Below, piece by piece: positions 27,781 to 41,098 of a DNA stretch of 42,033 nucleotides. Each line of letters opens with the position of its first letter. Position 1 is the stretch's first letter. The stretch spans positions 1 through 42,033 of the forward strand of contig JAHBXV010000048.1 of the NCBI GenBank assembly GCA_019636285.1, given 5' to 3'. The notes under the pieces were generated by a model. That model worked only from the letters and a program-made list of their open reading frames with translations, did not search any database and had not been told where the DNA came from. The position numbers were made by a program, and so were the translations under genes. This DNA is from Planctomycetaceae bacterium (lineage in GTDB: Bacteria; Planctomycetota; Planctomycetia; Planctomycetales; Planctomycetaceae).

Positions 27781-28397
27781 GCCCCTCCCTTCTGGGCCGC
27801 CTCGTACGCGGCATTCAGAACGCCGTCGTACGTGCCGCAGCGACAGATGTTGCCACCGAGCCCTTTGCGGCAGTCTTCTTTCGAGGCCTTGGGGTGCATG
27901 TTGCAGAATCCCCGAACAGCCATCGCGAAGCCTGGCGTGCAGAAGCCGCATTGCATGCCGTCGTGCTCGACGAACTTATCGATCACTACGTCGACCCCGT
28001 CGCCGTTCGCGAGCGACTCGGTCGTTTCGATCTTCTGGCCCTGGCATTCAATGGCCAGGCGCGTGCAGGCGTAGATGGGCTTTCCGTCGATGAGGACGGT
28101 GCACGCTCCGCACGCACTACGATCACAGACCTCTTTGCACGAAGTGAGGTTCAGGTCGTTTCGAAGGGCGTCCAGAAGAACCACCCGCGGCTCGAGCATC
28201 AGCTCGTGGGTCTTGCCGTTGACTTGCAGCGTGACCTTATGGGGACCGGCTGTTGAAATCTTCGCTGGGGCGTCCTGGGCGATGGCCTCCTGCGCAGCCG
28301 TGACAGCGGCTGTGGCCGCTATTGCCGCGCCCGACCCTTTTATGAAGTCGCGGCGATTGAAGCCCGGACCAGACCGGGCGTTGGGATCTTGACTCAT
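27777..28397 (-). CDS. Tat-exported [2Fe-2S] subunit of a molybdenum hydroxylase (PaoA-like)
   Basis: The 206-residue protein has a twin-arginine signal (NRRDFIKGSGAAIAATAAV, ending near AIAQDAP) followed by the two iron-sulfur domains of the family. The first is plant-type: CKEVCDRSACGACTVLIDG, then ACTRLA. The second is helical: GMQCGFCTPGFAMAVRG and GNICRCGTYDGV. All eight cluster Cys appear present. Export of the folded enzyme with this subunit as carrier would place it in the periplasm, as established for the PaoABC type. It heads a four-gene operon whose members overlap or nearly touch. Regulatory genes are not found adjacent. Confidence 0.94.
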   Translation of the reverse strand: MSQDPNARSGPGFNRRDFIKGSGAAIAATAAVTAAQEAIAQDAPAKISTAGPHKVTLQVNGKTHELMLEPRVVLLDALRNDLNLTSCKEVCDRSACGACTVLIDGKPIYACTRLAIECQGQKIETTESLANGDGVDVVIDKFVEHDGMQCGFCTPGFAMAVRGFCNMHPKASKEDCRKGLGGNICRCGTYDGVLNAAYEAAQKGGA

Positions 28398-28746
28398 CTA
28401 GCGGCACTCCTTCACGAAGTGAATGACAGTGGTGCAGCACGAAAAGGAGAAATGGTTGCTGGACCGACGGAACTGTGACGGTCAGAGCGAGTTGTCCGGG
28501 CAAACGGGTTTTGGGCTCAGGCGTGGATTCCTTTCGGCCTGGAAGATGTCGAACAATCGTCTCCACGATTCGCCGCCGAGCGGCAGCGACACATGGCTCC
28601 ATCAGTTTTCGGACTTTGCGGAATCGCATCGTCGCCTCAGACAGGTCGACTGCAAGATTGTGCCCGAATTGGTTCGCAGGAACAACGATGGATGAGTGAA
28701 TTCCGATCCGTTCCGGAATTGTCTTTTTCGTCAACAAAATGTGTTT
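28398..28746. other. 349-bp intergenic region, no gene seen
   Basis: This gap lies upstream of the molybdenum hydroxylase operon and downstream of the DUF1445 gene on the same strand, so the operon promoter should be here. Small open frames exist but none has coding signals. I see no strong hairpin. Confidence 0.55.
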
Positions 28747-29520
28747 TTATTCCGCTAGGTCGGTCAGGAACATTTTTCCTGGCTGGTGCGTGATGGCCAA
28801 CGGCGGCCTGGCGTGTGCCAACGCGGCTTGTGGCGTCACTCCACACGCCCAGAAGACCGGCACTTCACCGTCGCGGATAGGAACCGCGTCTCCGAAATCG
28901 GGACTTGAAAGGTCCGAAATCCCGAGTGCTTCGGGATCACCGAAGTGAACCGGAGATCCGTGCGACTTGGGAAATGCCGAGGTGACTTCGACAGCGCGAA
29001 TGACGTCGGCCGGTGCGAGCGGACGCATGGAAACGACCAGCGGTCCCGCGAATGTCCCTGCGGCGACACACGGACGATTGGTGCGATACATGGGGACGTT
29101 GCAGCCGCATTCCAGATGTCGTATGGGAATACGATTGCGCAGCAATTCGGCCTCGAAGGTGAACGAGCAGCCGATTAAGAAGCTGACGAGATCGTCGCGC
29201 CACCACTGCGTGATGTCATCGGGTTCCTGAACGAGTTCGCCATTCTTCCAGACACGATAGCCGGGCAAGTCGGTTCGCAGATCGGCATCGGGTGTCGAGA
29301 GGCGGGGCACGGGGTCGCCGGGGTCAGTCACTTCCAGGAGCGGACACGGTTGCGGATTCCGCTGGCAGAATAAGAGGAAGTCGAAGGCCCAGTCGCGCGG
29401 CAGGATGACTAGATTGGCCTGGGCGAACCCGCTCGCGAGGCCGGCTGTCGGGAGGGTGAAGGTGCCCGATCGACAGGCCATGCGAACATCGCGCGCGCTG
29501 GACGATGAATTGAGAATCAC
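28747..29520 (-). CDS. DUF1445-family putative hydro-lyase (D-glutamate cyclase-like)
   Basis: The 257-residue product matches the DUF1445 family (YcsI-like; related to the mitochondrial D-glutamate cyclase). Signature segments include [78 protein letters not shown] and [10 protein letters not shown], ending [13 protein letters not shown]. The Cys-rich [10 protein letters not shown] part is the most conserved area in the family. A GTG at 29520 with GGAG about eight bases upstream includes the conserved N-terminal Arg-rich helix; ATG 29481 would remove it. The reaction in this organism is not known. It is divergent from the MOSC gene with about 107 bases between them. Confidence 0.9.
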
Positions 29521-29627
29521 GTGGCTGCTCCGCTTGCGGTTTCAGCTCTCAGCCGGTCGGCGTGGAGGCGCGTCGACGTTCGTGACAGAATATCTCGACT
29601 CGTCAGCAAACCCCAGAGACATCAAAG

Positions 29628-30122
29628 ATGGCCGAAGAATCGCTGATCCAGGAATTGCTGGCCGTGCTGCCACAGACGGGCCGCGTCGAGTGGATCGGTC
29701 GCAGTTCCGGTTCGCGTTCGGTCCTTGAACCGGTTGAATCGATCGACGTGGAAGTCGGCACCGGACTGGTCGGCGACCATCATTCGAAGCGACGACCCGG
29801 CGGCAAACGGCAGGTGACGCTCATTCAGCAGGAACACCTGGCCGCCGTGGGAGGCCTCTTGCATCGCGGGCCGGTTCGCCCTGATGAAACGCGACGGAAT
29901 ATCGTCGTCTCGGGAATCAATCTGCTGGCGCTCAAAGGACGCCAGTTTCGCATTGGTAACGCGATCCTGGAGTACACCGGGCCGTGCGAACCGTGTTCGC
30001 GAATGGAGGAGAACCTCGGCCCCGGCGGCTGGAACGCCATGCGCGGACACGGCGGGATCACGACGCGCGTGATCACCGCCGGAGTTATCCGCGTGGGAGA
30101 CACGGTAGCGGTTTCCCCGTGA
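29628..30122 (+). CDS. MOSC-domain protein
   Basis: A 164-residue single-domain MOSC protein. MOSC domains occur in Mo-cofactor sulfurases and in YiiM/mARC proteins, where they hold or transfer the cofactor. Visible conserved blocks are VGTGLVGDHHSKRRPGGKRQ, VTLIQQEHLAAV, RRNIVVSGINLLAL, and CEPCSRMEENLGPGGWNAM ending GHGGITTRVI. The Cys in CEPCSRM corresponds to the conserved family Cys. It could act on the molybdenum hydroxylase encoded nearby, but the pairing is inference. Its TGA is formed by the first bases of the TGAAAAGC repeat that follows. Confidence 0.92.
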   Translation: MAEESLIQELLAVLPQTGRVEWIGRSSGSRSVLEPVESIDVEVGTGLVGDHHSKRRPGGKRQVTLIQQEHLAAVGGLLHRGPVRPDETRRNIVVSGINLLALKGRQFRIGNAILEYTGPCEPCSRMEENLGPGGWNAMRGHGGITTRVITAGVIRVGDTVAVSP

Positions 30123-30193
30123 AAAGCGGTCGACGCTCTCGGCGGGGCTTTCCGGGTGAAGAGAAGACCGCCGACAGCGTCGGCGGCTTTTCA
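30120..30193. repeat. Composite inverted pair of TGAAAAGCC/GAAGAC hairpins between convergent genes
   Basis: Two related hairpins lie head to head. The first, 30120-30153, is degenerate (TGAAAAGCGGTCGACGCTC). The second, 30161-30193, is a clean palindrome (GAAGACCGCCGACAGCG, then TCGGCGGCTTTTCA). The pair exactly fills the space between the MOSC gene and the cyclophilin gene. It matches the pair at 39661-39735 almost base for base in the second unit. A bidirectional terminator role is plausible. Confidence 0.8.
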
Positions 30194-30196
30194 TGG

Positions 30197-30733
30197 TTAT
30201 TTTGGCGTCGCGATGACCTTCGCCGAGTTGATCTTCACCGGCGTCTTTGGCTTGTCGCCGTGGTCGGTGGGGACCGAGCCGATTTTGAGGACGACATCCA
30301 GGCTGGGCTGGTTAGCCGTTTTGCCGAAGACCGTGTACTGGTTGTCAAGGTGCGGCACGCGGTCGAGGCAAATGAAGAACTGCGACCCGGCCGAGTTGGG
30401 ATCGTTGGTGCGAGCCATCGACAGAATGCCCGCTTCGTGCGGGATCTTGTTGAATTCGGCCTTGATGGTGTAACCCGGTCCGCCAGTCCCCGTTCCTTGC
30501 GGGCAGCCGACCTGAATCACGAAGCCGGGGATGACCCGGTGAAAGATGATCCCGTCGTAAAAACCGATCTTGGTGAGGCCGATCAGGTTCTTCGCATGTC
30601 CGGGGGCATCATCCGGATAGACATCGAGGAGAATCTTTCCCATCGTGGTGTCGAATTCGACTTGATAGGTGTTCTTCGAGAAATCGACGTCGGCGAGCGC
30701 CTTGTCGACATCGGCTCGGCGATTGGCGGGCAC
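30197..30733 (-). CDS. Peptidyl-prolyl isomerase, cyclophilin type
   Basis: The product is a cyclophilin that isomerises Xaa-Pro bonds. Conserved segments are FHRVIPGFVIQVGCPQGTG, GPGYTIKAEFNKIPH, LSMARTNDPNSAGSQFFICL and DNQYTVFGKT. No signal peptide is seen, so it is cytoplasmic. The GTG at 30733 is chosen because ADVDKAL, which I recall near the start of related proteins, follows immediately. A frame to an ATG at 30901 would add 56 residues overlapping the divergent gene at 30759 and is less likely. With this start it has 178 residues, a typical size. Its gap to the divergent gene is only 25 bases. Confidence 0.92.
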   Translation of the reverse strand: MPANRRADVDKALADVDFSKNTYQVEFDTTMGKILLDVYPDDAPGHAKNLIGLTKIGFYDGIIFHRVIPGFVIQVGCPQGTGTGGPGYTIKAEFNKIPHEAGILSMARTNDPNSAGSQFFICLDRVPHLDNQYTVFGKTANQPSLDVVLKIGSVPTDHGDKPKTPVKINSAKVIATPK

Positions 30734-30758
30734 GGCAACAGCTCTTTCGGCTAAAGGG

Positions 30759-31517
30759 ATGACGAACGTGTCTTCCGAGAGTCTATCGACGAACCATGTC
30801 GAGGTCGAACCGGGGCGGCCCGATTCCTGGAACGTGTTCGCCGGGGCGCATCGCTGGTGGCTGCGAAAGGGTGTTCCACCGACGCTGGGGCAAGCAGGCA
30901 CGCGCGTTCGTGCGATTCGGACATCGATTCTGCTGGCGGTGATGGGGATTGTGTCGAGCTGGGTCTCGTTCGGGGCGCTCTACCTTGATGGGTTTATGCA
31001 GGGACATGGCGGGTTGAATGTGCTTTTGGGCTTCGGACCGGGATGGGCCTATGGAATCGTCGTGCTGGTCCCGCTGTCGCGGTGGCTGGGACGGACGTGG
31101 TTCTGGTCGATCATCAGTCTGCTCCCATCGTGCGGACTGTATTACGCGGCGCTCCATCTGCACTTTTTGATCAGCCCCATTTTCGGGGAAACCTCCAAAC
31201 CGCCGGTCGGCGCGTTGTGGGCCGGGATGCTGGGTGGTGCGGGAATCGGGCTGTGGATGGCTCGTCCCGGTGGACGTTCCCTGGTGGGGCTGCCGGTCGC
31301 ATGTGGTCTGGTGGCGGGTGTCTGCTGTTCGATCGTGTTTCTCGACGGTGCGCCCCTGAAGGTCGGAGCGATTTCAGGGTGGATCAGCGACGCCAGGAAT
31401 CTGTTGGCTTTTCCGACGATTTATGGAAGCTTTCAGGTTCCCGTGGCGGTGGTGTTGGGAACGCGTTTGTGGGGCTGGCCTAAGAAGCGCTCGGGAGCCA
31501 ACGATGCTGCCAAGTGA
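30759..31517 (+). CDS. Polytopic membrane protein of unknown function, member 1 of three
   Basis: A 252-residue protein with about six membrane helices, beginning with MTNVSSESLS. A conserved-looking cytoplasmic lead SWNVFAGAHRWWLRKGVPPT precedes the first helix, and it is echoed in the next gene's product, SWNVLAGAPKWWFRAEIPPT. Helices include ILLAVMGIVSSWVSFGALYL and AYGIVVLVPLSRWLG; the last leads to a basic tail (WGWPKKRSG). Start at 30759 has AAAGGG upstream and gives an N-terminus aligned with the paralogue; an upstream frame to 30669 would run into the cyclophilin gene. The next gene overlaps its end by 14 bases, so the genes are coupled. No family recognised. Confidence 0.78.
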   Translation: MTNVSSESLSTNHVEVEPGRPDSWNVFAGAHRWWLRKGVPPTLGQAGTRVRAIRTSILLAVMGIVSSWVSFGALYLDGFMQGHGGLNVLLGFGPGWAYGIVVLVPLSRWLGRTWFWSIISLLPSCGLYYAALHLHFLISPIFGETSKPPVGALWAGMLGGAGIGLWMARPGGRSLVGLPVACGLVAGVCCSIVFLDGAPLKVGAISGWISDARNLLAFPTIYGSFQVPVAVVLGTRLWGWPKKRSGANDAAK

Positions 31518-32211
31518 AGACAGGGCTGATGACCCACCAGAGTCATCCCGCGAGCGGCTCTCCTGGAATGTCTTGGCGGGAGCCCCGAAGTGGTGGTTTC
31601 GCGCGGAAATCCCACCAACGCTTGGTCCTGCAGGAACGTGGGAGCGTGTGATTCGGACGTCGGGACTCATGGGCTTGATGGGTTTGGCGGCGAGTTGGTT
31701 ATCGACCGTGCTGATCCTGGCGCTGTCCTCCGATCAATCGCTGGCGCCCGTGGGCCTTCTCATTTTGCTGTTCGTGAACCCAGGAACCGTCTATGCACTG
31801 ATTGTCATCCTACCTTGGTCAGTCTGGATGCGACTGCCCCTTCGTTGGGCGATCCTGACAATCCCATTCTGCGCCGCGTTTGCCCTTGCGGTTGCCTTTA
31901 CCGTGTTTGTCGGGCCAGACCCGGGACATCCGAATACTGCAGTTGCGGTATTCGCTTGGCCCGCGGGTATTCTCTGGTGGTGCACATCGCGAAGTACGGT
32001 TCAAACGAATATCCTCACGTTGATATGCATTATCGCGACGGGGCTTGCCTGTTTGTTGGTTCACTTCGGTTTGGACTCGCGGATGCTTCGGTCAGTTTCG
32101 CCAGTCGCGACTTGGGCAGTTGAGTGTGTTCGATACTCAGCATTTTTAGCAGCGCTATCGGTCCCGGTTTCAATCACCTTGGGGTCATTGTTGTGGAAGA
32201 TGGATCGGTAA
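31504..32211 (+). CDS. Polytopic membrane protein of unknown function, member 2 of three
   Basis: The 235-residue product is a paralogue of the preceding one. It shares SWNVLAGAPKWWFRAEIPPT, then GPAGTWERVIRTSGLMGLMG before the first helix, and about six membrane helices follow (AASWLSTVLILALS, AILTIPFCAAFALAVAFTVF, LICIIATGLACLLVHFGL). The ATG at 31504 has GGGAG six bases upstream. It ends at 32211, five bases before the start of the third gene. Function is unknown; the membrane topology and paralogy suggest subunits of one complex or an expanded family, which is inference. Confidence 0.78.
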   Translation: MLPSEDRADDPPESSRERLSWNVLAGAPKWWFRAEIPPTLGPAGTWERVIRTSGLMGLMGLAASWLSTVLILALSSDQSLAPVGLLILLFVNPGTVYALIVILPWSVWMRLPLRWAILTIPFCAAFALAVAFTVFVGPDPGHPNTAVAVFAWPAGILWWCTSRSTVQTNILTLICIIATGLACLLVHFGLDSRMLRSVSPVATWAVECVRYSAFLAALSVPVSITLGSLLWKMDR

Positions 32212-32216
32212 CCCGT

Positions 32217-32990
32217 ATGACCACCGAGCCGACCGATTCGCAGGGCGTTTCGTTCATCGCGTCGCTGTTCGCCGAGCGAGACGGGGATCCGCTGTTCCTT
32301 GCGCGTTGTCACGATGTGCGGGCGCGGGCGATTCGAGTCAATCTGGTGCTTCTGGTCGGGTTGCTGGTAGCGGCGTGGGCGACCTCCGGTGCGGCGTTCT
32401 TGGGGAATCTGCTGTTTCAGTATGACGAGTTCAGAATCGTCCTGGCCGCCACATGGCCGATCGCGATCACCGCGTTTGTCTATGGGCCACTTCAGTGGTG
32501 GACCCGGCGGTCGGTGGGAGCGATACTGCTCACGGCCGCGGTCTGGCTGTTTCTGATGATTGTCTTTATCTATTGGATTGAGTATGCGGTCATACGCTAC
32601 CGTGGGGAATTCGTCGCGCTGATCGTCGGCTTTCCCGTCGTCGCGGCCGGCGCGGGTCTGACACTCATTCGGCGAACGCGGGTGCATCTGCTGGCGTTCG
32701 TGCTGGCGATCGCCGGAAGCGCGCTCACGGCGTTGATCGTCGAACCGGCGGAGGACGCGCGGAACCAGATTGACGCCTGGATTGGCGATGAACATGGCCT
32801 GTTGATCTTAAGAGTCGCGATACTGGGGGCGTGGTTGGGATCGATGACCCTTCCCTGGGGCCTGCCCTTCTGGTGGCCGCCGGAAGAGAAGACCGTCGAC
32901 GGCGTCGACGGCGTCGACGGCTTTTCAGGGGGACTCGGCGGCGGCGAAGAGTTCGGCGACGTTGACCTGGAACTCCGGAAGCAATCGTGA
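32217..32990 (+). CDS. Polytopic membrane protein of unknown function, member 3, with repeat-encoded tail
   Basis: A 257-residue product with six or seven membrane helices (LVLLVGLLVAAWATSGAAF, AVWLFLMIVFIYWIEY, ALIVGFPVVAAGAGLTL). The topology resembles members 1 and 2, though sequence similarity is weak. The membrane part ends near LPFWWPPEE. From there the frame runs through a GAAGAC hairpin repeat, giving KTVDGVDGVDGFSGG, and then 21 residues antisense to the next gene, ending at 32990. The natural stop was probably lost to, or replaced by, the repeat. It overlaps the convergent Uma2 gene by 66 bases. Confidence 0.72.
   Translation: MTTEPTDSQGVSFIASLFAERDGDPLFLARCHDVRARAIRVNLVLLVGLLVAAWATSGAAFLGNLLFQYDEFRIVLAATWPIAITAFVYGPLQWWTRRSVGAILLTAAVWLFLMIVFIYWIEYAVIRYRGEFVALIVGFPVVAAGAGLTLIRRTRVHLLAFVLAIAGSALTALIVEPAEDARNQIDAWIGDEHGLLILRVAILGAWLGSMTLPWGLPFWWPPEEKTVDGVDGVDGFSGGLGGGEEFGDVDLELRKQS
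32883..32927. repeat. TGAAAAGCC/GAAGAC hairpin with an extra GTCGACGGC unit
   Basis: The element reads GAAGAGAAGACCGTCGAC, then repeated GGCGTCGAC, and ends GGCTTTTCA. An extra GGCGTCGAC unit lengthens the stem region compared with the copies at 33586 and 34277. It encodes the tail of the membrane protein on the plus strand and, on the minus strand, the TGA of the Uma2 gene. Confidence 0.8.
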
Positions 32991-33572
32991 TTCGGCGATC
33001 GCGTCGCCGCGAAATGGGCCGTGTTCGCGATAGGCGCTGCCTTCGAGAACCAGCACACGTACCGAACGGTCATCAGGGTCGATGATCCAGTATTCGGCAA
33101 CTCCCGCTTCCGCGTAGTCGTGCCGCTTGGCGATGAGGTCCCGCTCGCGATTTTCGGTGCCGGGGCTGAGCACTTCGAGGGTCAGGTCGGCTCCCGTTGG
33201 CATCTTCGCGGTGCTGGTGAGTTGCTGACGATTGACGAGAAACAGATCGGGCTCACGGGTGAGTCCCTGCCGCAGACGTAGCGGGCAGGGTGCCGTCAGG
33301 ATGCGTCGTACGTCGGAGTGCTGCTTCAGCCAGGCTTTGAGAAGATCTCGAAAGGCATCGACGAGCAGTTGATGCAGCGGCGTCGGCATCGGCAGAAACT
33401 CCAAGCAACCGTCGACCAGTTCGACGAACGCGTCCTGCTGAACGAGGTCGTAGTCGGATTCGGTCCACTCTCCCTGTCGCGGGTATTTGAGGGCCAATTC
33501 CCACGTTGGCTCGCCTCGCCGCGACGGGGCGAGTGGGTGTTCGGTTTCGTTGGAGTGGAGGGTTCCCGACAT
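32925..33572 (-). CDS. Uma2-family endonuclease-like protein, copy A
   Basis: The 215-residue protein belongs to the Uma2/DUF820 family, which has a PD-(D/E)XK nuclease fold; members are numerous in planctomycetes and cyanobacteria and their biological role is not known. Key positions are the Asp in REPDLFLV (about 109) and the Glu in LTLEVLSPG (about 133), with AEYWIIDP after. The first 63 residues and the last 59 are nearly identical to those of copy B downstream in sequence (33618-34262), while residues 64-156 diverge strongly. No toxin-antitoxin partner is visible. Its stop codon lies inside the 32883 hairpin. Confidence 0.9.
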   Translation of the reverse strand: MSGTLHSNETEHPLAPSRRGEPTWELALKYPRQGEWTESDYDLVQQDAFVELVDGCLEFLPMPTPLHQLLVDAFRDLLKAWLKQHSDVRRILTAPCPLRLRQGLTREPDLFLVNRQQLTSTAKMPTGADLTLEVLSPGTENRERDLIAKRHDYAEAGVAEYWIIDPDDRSVRVLVLEGSAYREHGPFRGDAIAESRLLPEFQVNVAELFAAAESP

Positions 33573-33585
33573 CGTGCTATCCGAA

Positions 33586-33620
33586 GAATGAAGACCGTCG
33601 ACGGCGTCGACGGCTTTTCA
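33586..33620. repeat. TGAAAAGCC/GAAGAC hairpin between the two Uma2 genes
   Basis: The palindrome CCGTCGACGGCGTCGACGG lies between GAAGA and CTTTTCA flanks. It supplies the TGA of copy B on the minus strand and lies 14 bases upstream of the copy A start. Confidence 0.8.
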
Positions 33621-34262
33621 GAGGGATTCGGCGGCGGCGAAGAGTTCGGCGACGTTGATCCGGAACTCCGGAAGCAATCGTGATTCGGCGATTGCGTCGC
33701 CGCGAAAGGGGCCGTGTTCGCGATACGTGCCGTTTTCGAGAACCAGAACACGCACGGAGCGGTCGTCCGGATCGACGATCCAGTATTCGGCGACTCCGGC
33801 CTGGGCGTAGTCTTCCCGTTTGTTGACGAAGTCCCGTTCGCGAGCGTCGGCCCCTGGGCTGACAACTTCGACGGCAAGGTCGATCGCCGCCAGTCCGGAC
33901 GACGTTCTCTTAAGTCTTGCGTGAGAGACATACAGTAAGTCTGGCTCGCGGATGCGACCTCGCCAAAGTCTGACGGGGAGCGGCGCGAACAGAACTTCGC
34001 CCGATCTTTGGGATTCAACAAGCTGGTGAAGGCGGAGAAACAGGAACCGAACCAGCAATTGATGCGACAGGTCGGGCATTGGCAGAAACTCCAGGCAACC
34101 GTCGACCAATTCGACGAACGCGTCCTGCTGAACGAGGTCGTAGTCGGATTCGGTCCAGTCCCCCTGCCGTGGGTATTTGAGTGCCAGTTCCCACGTCGGC
34201 TCGCCGCGCCGCGAGGGGGCGAGTGTGTGCTGGGTTTCGGAGGAGTGGAGAGTTCCCGACAT
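33618..34262 (-). CDS. Uma2-family endonuclease-like protein, copy B
   Basis: A 214-residue paralogue of copy A. The N-terminal MSGTLHSSETQHTLAPSRRG and the C-terminal 59 residues are almost the same as in copy A. The centre differs: copy B reads RFLFLRLHQLVESQRSG where copy A reads DAFRDLLKAWLKQHSDV. The catalytic pattern REPDLLYV and LAVEVVSPG is kept, so both may be active. The start at 34262 matches that of copy A exactly in context (GTTCCCGACAT on the plus strand). The family's role is unknown, and both copies are transcribed towards the membrane-protein operon. Confidence 0.9.
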   Translation of the reverse strand: MSGTLHSSETQHTLAPSRRGEPTWELALKYPRQGDWTESDYDLVQQDAFVELVDGCLEFLPMPDLSHQLLVRFLFLRLHQLVESQRSGEVLFAPLPVRLWRGRIREPDLLYVSHARLKRTSSGLAAIDLAVEVVSPGADARERDFVNKREDYAQAGVAEYWIVDPDDRSVRVLVLENGTYREHGPFRGDAIAESRLLPEFRINVAELFAAAESL

Positions 34263-34276
34263 CGTGGCGTTCCGGA

Positions 34277-34311
34277 GAATGAAGACCGTCGACGGTGTCG
34301 ACGGCTTTTCA
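34277..34311. repeat. TGAAAAGCC/GAAGAC hairpin upstream of Uma2 copy B
   Basis: The element reads GAAGACCGTCGACGG, TGTCGACGG and CTTTTCA. It is nearly identical to the copy at 33586, with one central base changed. It sits between the hydantoinase 3' end and the Uma2 copy B start, so the three hairpins bracket both Uma2 genes. Confidence 0.8.
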
Positions 34312-34364
34312 GGGGGATGGTTCATTCAGCGTAATTGCGCTCGCGCGGGGGGGCAACGGCGATT

Positions 34365-37300
34365 TCAGGATCGGGCGTCTCCCCAGCCTCCGCCGCCGGG
34401 AGTTTCAATCTGCAAGACATCGCCAGGGGCGACATCGATGGAGAATTTGCCGCCGAGGTCGATTTCGTCGGCCGTGCCCGCGCGGAGGACTGTGTTTCGC
34501 CCCAGTGCTCCCGGTTGTCCGCCATTCTGGCCGAACGGTGCATACGGCCCGCGACGTTCGGAGAGCATGGAGACTTTCAGGGGTTTCAAGAACTCGATTC
34601 TGCGAACCAGTCCGTCGCCCCCGCGATGTGTCCCCGCGCCGCCGGAACCGCGTCGAATGGCGAATTCATGAATGCGGACGGGATAGCGGCGTTCGATCAC
34701 TTCCGGATCGGTGAGGCGGGTGTTGGTCATGTGGGTGTGGACGGCGTCGGCGCCGTCGTGGTCGGATGTCGCGCCGCTGCCGCCGCAGATGGTTTCGTAG
34801 TAGCCGAAGGTTCCGTCGCCGAACGTCAGGTTATTCATCGTCCCTTGGCTGGCCGCCGCCAGGCGCAGCGCGCCGAGTAAGACATCGACCACGCGTTGCG
34901 AGGTTTCGACATTACCGCCGACCATAGCCGGGCAATCCGCCGGGTTCGCGGCTTCGGGAGGATTGAGCAGGCATTCAGGCAAAATAATCGTGACCGGATC
35001 GAGGACGCCGCTGTTGAGAGGGATGTCCTCCGCGATCAGGCAGCGAAAGACGTAGAGAACTGCCGCCGTGACGATTGCCCGGTTGGCATTCAAGTTGGTT
35101 GCCAGCACTGGGCCGGTGCCGGTGAAGTCGACGGTCGCCTCTTCGCCGCGAATGGTGATCGTCGCAGTAATCGGGCTGCCGTCGTCAAGATGATCGGTGA
35201 ACGTGTATTGGCCATCATTCATCGCGCTGAGCGCCAGACGCGTCTTGGCGGCTGCCGCCTGTTGGATGAACCCCATGTAGGCGACCACCACGTCGCGGCC
35301 CGAGCGACGAATCAATTCGCCCAGAAGCTGAGCCCCCATCGCATTCGACGCGACCTGGGCCGAGAGGTCGGCCAGATTGTCGGCGACGGAGCGAGATAGC
35401 CACGGACCCGATTCCAAGAGGTGCCGAAGTTCGGCTTCACGGGATTCGCCGTTCGCCACAAGGCGAAAATTGCGGATCAGCACCCCTTCTTCACCCAGGT
35501 TCTTCGAGAACGGCGGCATGCTGCCGGGGACAATGCCGCCGATCTCGGCGTGGTGGGCGCGGCTGGCGGTGAAGAACAGCAGTTGGCCGGTTTCATCGTG
35601 GACCGGCGTCACCACGGTTACGTCTGGCAGATGCGATCCGCCGCGATAGGGATCGTTCGTCACGAACACATCACCCGGCGCGAGGTCGGGATTGTCGGCG
35701 ATCACGCGGCGAACGGTCTCGCTCATCGCTCCCAGGTGAACGGGGATATGAGGAGCATTGACGACCAGCCCGCCCGCGGCATCGAAGACCGCGCAACTGA
35801 AATCGAGCCGCTCTTTGACGTTCGTGGAAATGCTGGTGTGTTGCAGCGTCAGCCCCATCTGCTCGGCGATCGACGCGAAGAGGTTGTTGAAGATCTCCAG
35901 CCGCACGGGATCGGGATGAGTCGAGGGTCGAGAGTCGGGCGGAGTCGAGAGTCGAGTGTCGAGAGTCGAGCCAAGACTTTTCTTCTCTCTCGACTCTCGA
36001 CCCTCGTCTCTCGACTCATCGCAATCGACCAGCACTTCTCCGCGTGCGAGGATGCGGGCCGTGCAACCGGGGGGAATGACGAGCGTTGATGTTGGCTCGC
36101 AAACGATCGCGGGGCCGTCGAATTCATCGCCGGCGTGCAGGAGTTCTCGCGGGTAGAGACCGGTTTCTAACGCCTGGCCCGCGAAGACCGTGGTGATGAC
36201 TCCTTCGGGCTGAGGACGCCGTGAAACGAGTTCTTCTTCTGATTCGACGGGATCGGGCATGCGGCCGATCACTTCCACGCGGACGGCGACAATCTCCAGC
36301 GGGCGGTTGCGATGGACATACCCGTATAATCGGCGGTGTTGCTCCGCGTACGCGGCTGCGTAGTCTCCATCGTCGGGATGTTCGACCGTGATGACTGACT
36401 CGACGCCTGCATACCTCAGATCGAGGGCGACACGTGGCGGTTCAATTTGATCGAGCGAAACACCTTCGGCAACGACTTCCTGTGTGGCTTCCTCGGTCAA
36501 ACGGGCGAGCAGCGGTTCAAGTTCGCTCAGCGTGTCCGGGATATAGGGCTTGAGAATGGCTTGTTCGCGGAAGCGGCGGACGTCGGCAAGTCCAATTCCG
36601 TAAGCACTCAACAAGCCGGCATGGGGGTGACTGAGCACCCGGCCGATTCCCAGTAATCGGGCCAGTTCACACGCGTGTTGCCCCCCTGCTCCGCCGAACG
36701 TGACCAGGACATGATCGGCCGGATCATATCCCTTGGCGACCGAAACCTTGCGTACGGCCCGGGCCATCGATTGATTGGCGATCTCGACATAACCCTCCGC
36801 CAACTCGACTGCCGTATAGTCGCGACCCAACGGGGAGCGTTGAATTTCGTCACAGAGCGCCTCCAACCGCCGTTCCACCGCGTCGCGATCGAGCGCGAAT
36901 GGAAATCGTTCTTCGGGTAAGCGCCCCAGGAAGAAATTGACGTCGGTGACAGTGAGCGGCCCACCTTTTCCATAACAGGCCGGGCCAGGATCGGCACCCG
37001 CGCTTTGGGGGCCGACGAACAGCTTCACGCCATCAAAGCCGCAGATGCTGCCCCCGCCGGCAGCGACAGTGTGAATCGAGAGCATCGGCGCAACAACCCG
37101 TACGCCTGCCTTCTGTGTCTCATATTCGTACTCGTAGCGCCCGCCGAAGCGGGCTACGTCGGTGCTCGTTCCCCCCATGTCGAAGCCGATCGACTGCGCG
37201 AATCCGGCGCGCGAGGCGACCCGCGAAAAGCCGATCACGCCGCCGGCTGGCCCCGACAGAATGCTGTCCTTCCCGACGAACCGATCGGCAGAGACCAATC

Positions 37301-38267
37301 CGCCGGCCGAGGTCATCAATCTCAGAGACGGCACGTTTGATTCGCCAGTAATTGATGTCGTCAACGAGGCCTGGAGCCGCGCGAGGTAGTCGCGCAGAAT
37401 CGGGTTGAGGTAGGCATTCATGACCGTCGTATCGCCGCGCGAAACGATCTTGATGAGCGGTGCTAACTGACTGGAGACGCTGATCTCCTGGAAGCCGAGA
37501 TCGCGGGCTACTTCAGCCACCAGGTCTTCGTGAGCGGGATTGCGGAAAGCGTGCAGAAGGCAGATGGCGATCGCCTCGCATCCGGCCTCGCGCAAATGGG
37601 CCAGGGCGGTTCGCACCTGGTCGCGGCTCGGCGCGCGGAGGATGCTGCCATCAGCTGCCAGCCGTTCGTCGATTTCGGCAACTTCGGTGAAGAGAGGCTC
37701 GGGCTTTTCGATCGCCAGATCGAACAGTCGCGGGCGATCTTGATTGGCAATTTTGAGCACATCGCCAAAACCCCGTGTGGTGACAAAGCCCGTTCTAGCC
37801 CCTCGTCGCGTGAGTAGCGCGTTGGTTCCCCGGGTGGTCCCCAGACGCGCCTGAATCGGCGGCAATGGCTCATCGGCTCGCAGCCGCAAGATGTTGCGAA
37901 TCGCCACGAGCGGCGCTTCATCGGTCGAAGAGAGTTCGTAACGGGCACCCAAGGCGAGGTCGCCAGGCAATTCGGGAGAAATGGTGATCGCGCCACGATC
38001 GCCCGCGCTGGACTCCACGACGTGCGTCGAGCGGATCGATCCGTCGGGAGCGAGCACGTTCAAACGGCAGCCGCGCCAACGATTGTCGGGCTCGCCGACT
38101 CGCGAAGAATCGGTGAATCGGGCTCTCGACTCGATGTGGTTGACGGTTCCCTTGGTCAAGCCGGAGCTGAGGACTTTGGCGGTCACCAACACGTTTTCGG
38201 GAGTGCGAGCGAGGCAATCGGTGAATGTTCCCCCAACGTCGATCCAGAATTCCCACGGCGTGGTCAT
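34365..38267 (-). CDS. Fused hydantoinase A/B (5-oxoprolinase-like) protein
   Basis: The 1300-residue protein joins both subunits of the ATP-dependent hydantoinase/oxoprolinase family, which hydrolyse cyclic amides such as 5-oxoproline. The HyuA half starts with the phosphate-binding [13 protein letters not shown] (residues 9-21) and contains [14 protein letters not shown] and [14 protein letters not shown]. The HyuB half begins near residue 790 ([20 protein letters not shown]) and includes [13 protein letters not shown] and the C-terminal [20 protein letters not shown]. Between them, residues 751-775 are encoded by a palindromic DNA element and form a charged linker. The start at 38267 has AGGA seven bases upstream; longer sequence to 38384 reads as non-coding. 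Substrate cannot be told from sequence. Confidence 0.9.
35942..36017. repeat. Translated palindromic element inside the hydantoinase gene
   Basis: Arms at 35942-35970 and 35989-36017 are nearly perfect reverse complements over 29 bases (GAGTCGAGAGTCGAG type) around an 18-base loop. Another unit of the same motif precedes it at 35919. It lies in frame in the linker between the HyuA and HyuB halves, adding about 25 residues rich in Ser, Arg and Glu. Confidence 0.85.
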
Positions 38268-38422
38268 GACCAATCCTGATGTCGCGGACCGTTCCGATGG
38301 TCCCCTTATGGCGATGTTCTCGCGCCGCTTTCGGCGGCGATGCGCGGTTGTATCAAACGCTGGCGCGATTGACAGGGGGTGCATCTCTCGGGAAGGTACG
38401 GGAAACCCATGAAAGGATTCCG

Positions 38423-39658
38423 ATGCGTTTCCCGCTCCCTCTCCTCATCCTGCTCGCCCTAGCCGCCTCGCTTCAAGCCGACAGTCCCGATTCCGCGAAC
38501 GAAGAGCCGCTACGTGTGGCCGGGCTTGTGACGCTGTATCGTCAGAACTCTCACGCCGACGTCATCCTGAGCCGTATTCTGAAGACCGAAACGCTGGATG
38601 GACAGGGACGACGTCCCAACTTGAAGCTGGTGTCCCTCTATGTGGACCAGGTGCAGGAGAACGACCTGTCCCGCTCACTCGCGGACGAATACGGGATACG
38701 GCTGTTTTCGACGCCAGGGGAGGCGCTCACGCTCGGGACGGGAAAACTCGCCGTCGATGGCGTGTTTCTGATCGCCGAGCATGGAGACTACCCGACCTCG
38801 CGAACGGGACAAACGGTCTATCCCAAGCGGCGGCTGTTCACGGCGGTGACCGATGTCTTCCGGGAGAGCGGCCGCGCGGTTCCCGTCTTTCATGACAAAC
38901 ATCTGGCCGATACCACGGCCGATGCCCTATGGTACTTTCAGACGGCCGAGGAACTGAAGGTTCCGCTGATGGCGGGGACGTCGATCACCGGCACCTGGCG
39001 CGAACCGCCGATTGATGTTGAGCGAGATAGTGAACTGACCGGGCTGGTCGTGCTTTCCTACGGGCCGCTCGATGCCTATGGGTTCCATGCGCTGGAACTG
39101 TTGCAGACGCTCGCGGAACGGCGGCACGGGGGCGAAACCGGCGTCGCGTCAGTCCGCTCGCTGACGGGTGATGCCGTGTGGAACGCAATTCAGAGCGATC
39201 TGATTCCCGCCCGGTTGGTGGAGGCGGCGCTTATTCGGCAGCGCCATGCGAAGACGACAAGCGCCAGCGACCTGGCTCGATTCGTGCGCGAGCCCGTGGC
39301 CTTTCAGGTTCGTTATCGCGACGGCTTGCAGGCCAGTGTGCTGACGTTGAACGGAGCGATCGCGGACTGGTCGGCTGCGTGGTCGGCGCGCGAGGACTCT
39401 CAACCGCAAAGCTTCCGGGTCGATTTGCAGGACGAGTCGCCCTACATGCACTTCGGCCACCTGTTACGCCGCATCGAACCGTTTTTGCAAACGGGCGAGC
39501 CCTCCTGGCCGGTTGACCGGACGCTTTTCAGCAGCATTCTGCTCGATGCCGCGCTGACGTCGCGGGCCGATGGCGGACGGACGGTTGAGACGCCGGAACT
39601 CGTGCGGTCGTATCGCACCACCTGGCAGTGGCGGCAACCGGATGATGTTGGACGTTGA
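38423..39658 (+). CDS. Secreted protein of unknown function
   Basis: The 411-residue product begins with a short signal peptide (RFPLPLLILLALAASLQA, cleavage near ADSP). The start at 38423 has AAAGGA six bases upstream; in-frame sequence back to 38279 lacks support. The mature protein contains VAGLVTLYRQNSHADVILSR, then GVFLIAEHGDYPTSRTGQT and PVFHDKHLADT, and a later DLQDESPYMHFGHLLRRIEP. The early part recalls an alpha/beta Rossmann-type domain, but no cofactor motif is clear and I assign no family. It is divergent from the hydantoinase gene and convergent with the PHP gene, with a composite hairpin repeat at its 3' end. Confidence 0.82.
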   Translation: MRFPLPLLILLALAASLQADSPDSANEEPLRVAGLVTLYRQNSHADVILSRILKTETLDGQGRRPNLKLVSLYVDQVQENDLSRSLADEYGIRLFSTPGEALTLGTGKLAVDGVFLIAEHGDYPTSRTGQTVYPKRRLFTAVTDVFRESGRAVPVFHDKHLADTTADALWYFQTAEELKVPLMAGTSITGTWREPPIDVERDSELTGLVVLSYGPLDAYGFHALELLQTLAERRHGGETGVASVRSLTGDAVWNAIQSDLIPARLVEAALIRQRHAKTTSASDLARFVREPVAFQVRYRDGLQASVLTLNGAIADWSAAWSAREDSQPQSFRVDLQDESPYMHFGHLLRRIEPFLQTGEPSWPVDRTLFSSILLDAALTSRADGGRTVETPELVRSYRTTWQWRQPDDVGR

Positions 39659-39660
39659 CG

Positions 39661-39735
39661 TGAAAAGCCGCCGACGCTGTCGGCGGGAATTTCCTAAATG
39701 AAGAGAAGACCGCCGACAGCGTCGGCGGCTTTTCA
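39661..39735. repeat. Composite inverted pair of TGAAAAGCC/GAAGAC hairpins between convergent genes
   Basis: The left unit TGAAAAGCCGCCGACGC is oriented opposite to the right unit, GAAGACCGCCGACAGCG with TCGGCGGCTTTTCA, and the two are separated by about 12 bases. The arrangement and sequence nearly repeat those at 30120-30193. It lies three bases after the stop of the 38423 gene and eleven before the end of the PHP gene, so a bidirectional terminator role is likely. Confidence 0.85.
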
Positions 39736-39745
39736 TGGAGAGAAA

Positions 39746-41098
39746 TTACTTCGCCGGGCGGACGGGTTGGGTCCAGGCGTTTTCGAAGTCCCCCATTTCC
39801 GAGGGATTGGGGTGCGGTCGCGAGGAGACGACTTTGCAACGGACGTAAAGTTCGTTCCCCTTCATCCGATAGGTGGCCGATTCGCCAGTGCTCGATTGAA
39901 ACACGGCACCCACGTCCTTGGAGTAGCGGCGAGTGACCGGCAGTTCGGCCCCTTGCTCATCGCGAACCGGCTCGCTGGAACGGTCGAAGTCTTCGCGGGT
40001 GCCGATGAAGTCAATCCGATAGGTGACCCCTTCGTCCGGACGGACAGCGACGGTCAGGTCGCGACCATCGAAGCTGACCCGGTCGAGCGTGACGCCGCTG
40101 CTGGCATAGAATTGGCCGGCTTCCATCGCCGTGATAAGCGATTCGACACTGAGATCGGAGGCGAGGACCATGACCCAGGCGCGTCCGGGTTCGCTGGCGC
40201 GGCTCGGAATGTTGTGATAGTTGTGCCCGTCGTCGGTTCCCAGACCGTACATCAGCGGCAGGTCGGTCTCGGTGAGACGCCGCGAATTGATGATGTCCCA
40301 GATCGCTTCCGTCCCGGCATGCACATGGTCGCCGTGGTTGTGAACGCCCGGGTGACCGTTGTAGACCTCGAAGAAGTTCTCGCCGCGAACCGGGAAAATG
40401 TCTTCGGCGGTCACCCCCCATTGAAAATTGGGGTGGTTGAGATGCACGAGAATCGGTGTGTTTTCGCGTTCCCGCTGGGCAATGACCGCGTTGACGTTGT
40501 TCTGGATGGCTTCCGTGACGCTGTTCCCGCCAAGCGGGGGAATGGCCGTTTGAATGTTGCTGGCGTTGAGGTGAATCGGCGACTTGCCGAACCTGTCGGA
40601 GATTTCTTCACCCTGGATCAGCAGGAACTTGTCCGGAACACCCACCTTTTCGACGACTTCCGGGAACATTCGCAGCCTGACTTGCTGCTTTCCGTCAACC
40701 GTGCGTTCGTCGATCCAGTCGGGAAATTGCTGCTTGAGCTTGTCGTAGGCCTTCTGGCCTCCCTTGGTCTTTTCGACGTCGACCCAGCGTTCGCTACGAG
40801 CCAGGACATTGTGATCCGTGAAGACGAGAAAGTCGTATTTCTTTTCGCGATACCAAAGTGCAATGTTTTCGAGGTAGTCGTCGCCGTCGCTCCAGTGGGA
40901 GTGGGTATGCATATTCCCCTTGAACCACTTGAGACCCTCGCCGGCGGCGAGAACACGAGTCGGTTGGATGGGAACGGGATGGGTGCCAACAAAACTGCTG
41001 AGTGCGAATCCCAGGACTCCCAGAACGAGGACTCCGCCCAAGGCTGACGGCCAGGGAGCGCGCTGATGTGTCGTTTCACGCTGTTGCTCGGTGGTCAT
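39746..41098 (-). CDS. Membrane-anchored PHP-type metal-dependent phosphoesterase-like protein
   Basis: The 450-residue product has an N-terminal membrane anchor (about residues 18-38, SALGGVLVLGVLGFALSSFV) and then a PHP-like domain. The metal-binding start is GNMHTHSHWSDGDDY (residues 61-75), followed by DFLVFTDHNVLARSE, and histidines further on (ILVHLNHPNFQWG, HPGVHNHGDHVHAG, YGLGTDDGHNYH). Such domains usually bind two or three metal ions and cleave phosphoesters; the actual substrate is unknown. The C-terminal 130 residues look like beta-rich domains. The start at 41098 has GAGGATC about eight bases upstream. It is divergent from the Bax inhibitor gene. Confidence 0.88.
   Translation of the reverse strand: MTTEQQRETTHQRAPWPSALGGVLVLGVLGFALSSFVGTHPVPIQPTRVLAAGEGLKWFKGNMHTHSHWSDGDDYLENIALWYREKKYDFLVFTDHNVLARSERWVDVEKTKGGQKAYDKLKQQFPDWIDERTVDGKQQVRLRMFPEVVEKVGVPDKFLLIQGEEISDRFGKSPIHLNASNIQTAIPPLGGNSVTEAIQNNVNAVIAQRERENTPILVHLNHPNFQWGVTAEDIFPVRGENFFEVYNGHPGVHNHGDHVHAGTEAIWDIINSRRLTETDLPLMYGLGTDDGHNYHNIPSRASEPGRAWVMVLASDLSVESLITAMEAGQFYASSGVTLDRVSFDGRDLTVAVRPDEGVTYRIDFIGTREDFDRSSEPVRDEQGAELPVTRRYSKDVGAVFQSSTGESATYRMKGNELYVRCKVVSSRPHPNPSEMGDFENAWTQPVRPAK

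Follow-up and report, generated by a model that had tools for sequence, protein, structure and literature searches.

Tandem Uma2 genes and the hairpins around them

The window, meaning the whole 42,033-nucleotide stretch of Planctomycetaceae bacterium DNA that was analysed, contains two intact Uma2 open reading frames placed head to tail on the minus strand, with a hydantoinase A/B gene (34365-38384) upstream of them. Gene A (32925..33572) encodes 215 aa, and gene B (33618..34262), the upstream copy in the direction of transcription, encodes 214 aa from a start picked within a longer frame. With 100.8 bits for A and 108.2 bits for B, both lie far above the curated cut-off of 27 bits of the Pfam Uma2 family PF05685. 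The genome of origin holds 18 Uma2 matches, and searching it with B as the query returned 11 places, comprising B itself, A (71%) and nine others (29-39%). An ORF on the plus strand (32124-32990), which has no Pfam match and is hydrophobic by eye, stops antisense within the 3' end of gene A after crossing the expanded hairpin described below as VDGVDGVDG.

A hairpin triplet had been reported to bracket the two genes in the initial annotation, and it is present as two 48-nt copies that are 94% alike together with one version carrying a 9-bp expansion. One hairpin lies upstream of B (34285..34305; 48-nt copy 34271-34318, family match 34283-34310), another between the genes, directly behind the stop codon of B (33594..33614; 48-nt copy 33580-33627, family match 33592-33619), and the expanded one, delimited by repeat comparison, behind the stop codon of A (32892..32921; copy approximately 32878-32934). 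The upstream and middle hairpins fold well on both strands, the RNA fold z being -3.3 (+) and -4.7 (-) for the former and -3.0 (+) and -3.9 (-) for the latter, and on the gene strand each of the three resembles a terminator (3 found vs a shuffle mean of 1.6). The repeated unit consists of a hairpin and a gene and is closed by the third hairpin, such that the hairpins bound the duplicated unit exactly.

These hairpins belong to a dispersed family. The pattern AGACCG.CG.C..CG.CG.CGGCTTTTC matched 16 places in the own genome, in the window and on the contigs C2, C22, C25, C26, C33, C38, C55 and C59; only two of the 16 adjoin A/B and the other 14 do not. Within the stretch 28000-40000 two more members, 30153-30200 and 39695-39742 (pattern matches 30165-30192 and 39707-39734), lie away from the Uma2 genes. 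Family members differ mostly by paired compensatory changes in the two arms, and the element is possibly a terminator or a REP-like element. Direct repeats around Uma2 genes were uncommon, being found at 19 of the 171 gene copies scanned; 16 of these 19 were at tandem loci, and six of the 16 were A/B fetched three times. The hairpins were discarded as a general mobility signature. Elsewhere in the own genome, a direct repeat of some 114 bp, its copies 89% identical, flanks a single Uma2 gene (L016, C18:129972-130469).

Mosaic structure of the pair

Base-by-base comparison of A and B divides the genes into four parts. Codons 1-62 of A (33387..33572, minus strand) are homogenised with those of B (34077..34262, minus strand), with 58/62 aa identical, nucleotide identity of 0.90 and synonymous differences at 12/54 codons. 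They are followed by an unrelated central cassette, codons 63-128 of A (33189..33386, minus strand), where 24/65 aa agree, nucleotide identity falls to 0.45 and synonymous differences rise to 19/24; its counterpart in B (33882..34076, minus strand; same A-numbered codons) was delimited by the junction fit and the synonymous count. Codons 129-180 (33033..33188 in A and 33726..33881 in B, both minus strand) are intermediate (37/52 aa, 0.76, 16/36), and codons 181-215 (32928..33032 in A and 33621..33725 in B, both minus strand) form a strongly homogenised C-terminal tail (32/35 aa, 0.94, 3/32). The copies also differ by a one-residue indel.

As protein conservation alone could make the ends alike, synonymous differences were counted solely at codons with the same residue in A and B. 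The contrast persists there, codons 63-128 differing from codons 1-62 at Fisher p=3e-6 and from codons 181-215 at p=1e-7. A permutation scan of synonymous sites, used in place of GENECONV, gave p=0.0005, which is the floor of 2000 permutations; it had replaced a scan on all third positions because the latter is confounded by residue change. The best three-part split has nucleotide identities of 0.92 / 0.43 / 0.84, maximum-likelihood junctions at codons 62/63 and 128/129 and a dlnL of 63. The N-side junction is sharp and falls in the motif LPMP. On the C side identity changes in steps, as if conversion tracts there differed in age.

The residue counts given by the initial annotation for the two ends, 59/63 at the N terminus (4 residue changes over 63 codons) and 52/59 at the C terminus (7 changes over 59 codons), proved exact, and its estimate of roughly 40 percent for the centre agrees with the 43% obtained from 52 changed codons in 92. 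A single C-terminal break at residue 156, as the same counts implied, was not borne out, codons 129-180 being intermediate and only codons 181-215 strongly homogenised. Because the end/centre contrast is carried by synonymous differences, the A/B mosaic is supported as the product of recombination and not of protein conservation. That reading, too, had been proposed from the sequence; neither a smooth gradient of identity nor an end/centre contrast shared as ordinary conservation was seen, since identity drops abruptly on the N side and the contrast is mostly missing from close cross-species pairs.

A structural model of B has a mean pLDDT of 80.7, with residues 1-60 low, and Foldseek matched it to 6okh (E 5e-15), 9y1l (4e-13), 3ot2 (6e-10) and 1wdj (1e-7); the model thus indicates that B has the PD-(D/E)XK fold of solved Uma2 members. 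Codons 63-128 comprise in this model a helix (65-85) and strands at 88-92, 97-100, 103-105 and 109-113, so that the cassette corresponds to the first long helix of the fold plus the strands around the active-site PD; in A it would cover the helix after LPMPT..HQ and the strands around REPD. Residues H67, P107-D108, E132 and K148 (B numbering) are invariant in 14 aligned rows including A. The H, PD, E and migrated Lys were equated by motif with the residues described by Feder and Bujnicki 2005 (PMC551604), and as they are kept in both genes, A and B both look catalytically complete judging by their sequences.

Controls were drawn from 101 distinct genes of the subfamily, that is 5050 pairs. Segment 64-105 is the most variable over all these pairs, with a mean identity of 34% vs 46-49% elsewhere. 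Close cross-species pairs, however, kept 83-100% aa in this segment (11 comparisons within four groups), as exemplified by L142, which shares 90-98% aa there with L195, L197 and L204, compared with 32% between A and B. The dlnL was 4.7-13.1 in eight close controls and 26.5-63 in 13 mosaic comparisons, figures that are descriptive because the mosaic comparisons were picked after earlier scans. One of the eight controls (L145/L199) was significant on the synonymous scan (p 0.004), over a short stretch at A117-131, and one cross-genome pair (L198/L209) had ends more alike than the segment between (N 83%, 64-105 49%, E 95% aa) yet a scan p of 0.14. Ordinary conservation was accordingly rejected as the cause of the contrast, which is mostly absent in close cross-species pairs and present in synonymous sites.

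Phylogenetic trees were built from the ends and the centres separately. The ends placed A and B in one clade (100/99) and rejected the union of B with its G001 relative (AU p=5e-19), so the two copies are nearer each other here than to foreign relatives, as is found in concerted evolution. In the centre tree (83 columns) B joined the G001 copy (94/87) and A was unplaced; the data did not reject A+B, the two G001 copies or the G036 triplet as single clades (p-AU 0.41, 0.37 and 0.19), the columns being too few to reject A+B. The closest match to the B centre is a G001 tandem copy (58-59% aa), and the order of copies differs, the B-like centre being upstream in the window pair (G000) and downstream in G001. 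Among 170 family genomes no donor closer than 49-51% aa was found for the A centre and none closer than 58% aa for the B centre, and the own genome, searched for Uma2 genes sharing either centre, held nothing close besides A and B.

Recurrence in neighbouring pairs and at loci with conserved flanks

The synonymous scan was extended to neighbouring, same-strand Uma2 genes with a threshold of p<0.01. Membership in the subfamily meant that both genes were found by the subfamily model at E<=1e-30 among the best seven candidates per genome, and L143 was excluded because its second gene was missed by that model. At least seven mosaics were obtained among the 11 subfamily pairs tested (A/B, L139, the second/third genes of L144, L160, L176, L177 and L181), the pairs below significance being L144 first/second (p=0.058), L178, L179 and L180. 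By comparison, 5/42 subfamily pairs from different genomes (>=60% identity, two same-genome rows excluded) were significant, a difference with Fisher p=0.001, or p=0.003 without A/B.

The pattern varies in extent. Only one end is homogenised in L160 and L185, and in L177 homogenisation covers one 26-codon stretch (0/18 vs 46/84 synonymous differences). L181 (G214) differs mainly in about 20 central codons, and L189, from a different Uma2 branch, has 0/20 synonymous differences at its two ends together and 49/74 between them. The third copy (by coordinate) of the G036 triplet combines an N end like that of copy 1 with a tail near identical to that of copy 2. The 5' junction lies at A55-70 (A numbering) in 9 of the 13 mosaic comparisons and at A62-64 in five, which are not all independent, three of them being the trio from genus g16 described below.

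In the first six genomes, 6 of the 15 adjacent pairs among the matches listed were at p<0.01 (A/B, L139, L144 second/third, L160, L185 and L189), a proportion biased upward because the set held genomes already known to carry mosaics; the full list from six further genomes contained none among eight neighbouring Uma2 pairs. None of five pairs from genomes reached via cyanobacterial and other loci was a central mosaic, L256 attaining p=0.0005 solely through its last codons. For widely spaced Uma2 genes in G038 (L254) the scan gave 0 of 3, and L191, a pair outside the subfamily, was uniform (p 0.53). Overall, the recurrence in some relatives suggests that the family evolves partly by swapping its middle section as a unit.

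Further observations concern the arrangement of the copies. The two Uma2 genes of L180 (G181; 728-1312 and 2117-2701), about 800 bp apart, have 0 synonymous differences in 185 codons, in contrast with the related G214 pair (L181), which differs mainly centrally. L161 and L163, on different contigs of G094, are 0.94-0.97 identical in nucleotides outside codons A56-96, where identity is 0.69; this resembles the other mosaics, though the two genes are not visibly in tandem. In seven draft contigs (L147, L161, L208, L209, L212, L224 and L230) a subfamily Uma2 gene lies about 2-375 bp from the contig end, as if unresolved repeats break assemblies, and tandem arrays may therefore be undercounted.

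At two loci with conserved flanks, the gene body or centre differs between congeneric species, the break being at A58-64. In genus g56, the flanks of L019 and G264 are conserved at 95-100% upstream and 92-100% downstream per 40 bases, and the Uma2 gene has an N end of 0.96 nucleotide identity, a break at A58/59 and 0.58-0.72 in the rest. The unlike stretch extends beyond the gene end, by approximately 100 bp in G264 and 290 bp in L019. The L019 gene is identical to that of G432 over A18-213, and G431 retains the same version (0.94 over A18-179). A 94-bp copy of the end of the upstream ORF is placed after the Uma2 gene in G264 and resembles a remnant left when a tandem duplication collapsed; on that reading, copies may be repeatedly duplicated, exchanged and lost.

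In genus g16, G015, G319 and G324 each have one match to the subfamily model. Between G015 and G324 collinearity extends to both sides of the gene, with 91% aa identity in the upstream gene, and G319 shares the 3' side only; a downstream gene, preceded by an extra ORF in G015 and G324, is 92-96% aa identical across the trio. The Uma2 ends of these species are about 0.8 identical and the centres 0.46-0.54 in nucleotides, and the 5' junctions fall at A62-64. When synonymous sites alone were considered, one of the three comparisons was significant (the others p 0.07 and 0.24), and a fourth gene of the genus (G420) is diverged throughout, without a clean mosaic (dlnL 7.2-12.0).

Origin of the mosaic and its significance

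The most probable account, held with some confidence, combines tandem duplication, conversion of the ends and replacement of the central helix-strand cassette, recurring in the subfamily. One hairpin-Uma2-hairpin unit would have been duplicated in tandem to give A and B, conversion between the copies would have kept their ends alike, and the cassette (about codons 63-128, elsewhere to about 150) would have been swapped in one piece for the corresponding part of a divergent Uma2 allele, presumably by RecA-type recombination. The exchanged block would comprise the helix starting at the conserved HQ, the next strands and the active-site PD. Junctions tend to lie within conserved blocks or next to them (LEFLPMP..HQ at the 5' side; ADL.EV.S or K..YA.AG-EYWIVDP at the 3' side), so that chimeras would stay whole enzymes with their putative active-site residues intact. 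Such exchange would be a recurring process in the subfamily.

The initial annotation had left a choice between homogenised ends and a replaced centre, and each has examples, tail conversion in G036 and in-place replacement in g56 and g16; A/B alone is compatible with either. An explanation that needs no foreign cassette, and that deserves perhaps one chance in three, is that A and B are old tandem duplicates whose centres diverged by substitution while ordinary gene conversion kept the ends alike. Its tracts would end where the centres are too divergent for conversion, or where selection maintains two distinct centres. The unequal ages of the tracts (3/32 at codons 181-215 vs 16/36 at codons 129-180), the composite third copy of G036 and the affinity of the B centre to a G001 tandem copy, as expected of an old orthologue, all agree with it. 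It accounts less well for the inverted copy order between G000 and G001 and for centres that differ between congeneric species at conserved-flank loci where no partner copy was seen, except that the species may each retain a different member of an array since lost. Loss of different copies from an older array could give the appearance of replacement.

Fast divergence of the centre in place, through positive selection, relaxed constraint or hypermutation as by a diversity-generating retroelement, would fit the high variability of segment 64-105 over the 5050 pairs and is nonetheless very improbable, because synonymous sites are strongly diverged too, the changes run across all base types without adenine bias, a one-residue indel is present and close cross-species pairs show no acceleration in the centre. 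Hypermutation in particular is thought unlikely from the substitution spectrum and from close pairs that are even along the gene. It is equally hard to credit that the exchange depends on the hairpins, with these acting as sites of recombination or cutting. Recombination at or near these repeats, as originally suggested, would fit the duplication, whose unit they bound exactly, and fails for the mosaic, whose junctions lie inside the genes and away from the hairpins; most family members are elsewhere in the own genome, and direct repeats accompany few Uma2 copies. The hairpins were hence rejected as mosaic breakpoints and may have served the duplication step.

Uma2 (DUF820/COG4636) was described by Feder and Bujnicki 2005 (PMC551604) as having a PD...EXX...K active site and proliferated paralogues with reported tandem duplications, and a recombinogenic, selfish behaviour was proposed for it. 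A and B resemble the family so portrayed in fold, active site and tandem duplication, and differ in being segmental mosaics, an exchangeable central cassette not being described in the accessible parts of that account. Makarova et al. 2009 (PMC2701414) presented COG4636 as cassettes of paralogous genes, in the portion available without a within-gene analysis of the present kind, and the available portions of PMC1913061 and PMC4963859 add nothing on within-gene mosaicism. A search of titles and abstract openings, a weak negative with most subscription papers outside its scope, found no report of within-gene mosaicism in Uma2/DUF820/COG4636 and none on Uma2 in Planctomycetes. The literature covered, in the parts available, likewise contained no tested Uma2 function.

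Tandem duplicates that evolve in concert around a protected, diverged segment are a general pattern. The A/B ends follow it, resembling each other more than relatives in other genomes; it differs from the Uma2 case in that Uma2 centres also vary between species at the conserved-flank loci, where a partner copy was not seen. Type I restriction HsdS subunits undergo shuffling of target-recognition domains, where conserved parts likewise flank exchangeable divergent modules; the swapped DNA-reading domains of HsdS have a known function, whereas the piece swapped in Uma2 lies inside the compact nuclease core and has a putative role in recognition. A divergent module between conserved flanks is found at the g16 locus and in the tandem pairs; in G264 the altered stretch instead continues past the end of the gene. 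Differential loss could mimic such an exchange.

In the replacement account, the ends would keep the scaffold and the cassette most likely sets recognition, so that it may determine the specificity of the nuclease for a substrate, a dimer partner or an inhibitor. Uma2 matches number 12-38 in twelve family genomes, and 65 and 74 in two genomes reached via cyanobacterial loci. We tentatively consider, as a possibility rather than an expectation, that the first long helix and the strands of this subfamily form a recognition cassette that can be interchanged, traded between alleles via preferred LPMP junctions, with tandem copies holding two specificities side by side. This would constitute a diversification system not described so far, in a highly proliferated nuclease family. 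If evolution keeps exchanging one helix-strand block while the rest stays constant, that block is where the recognition determinant should be sought, and natural pairs of the A/B type would provide ready-made domain-swap experiments.
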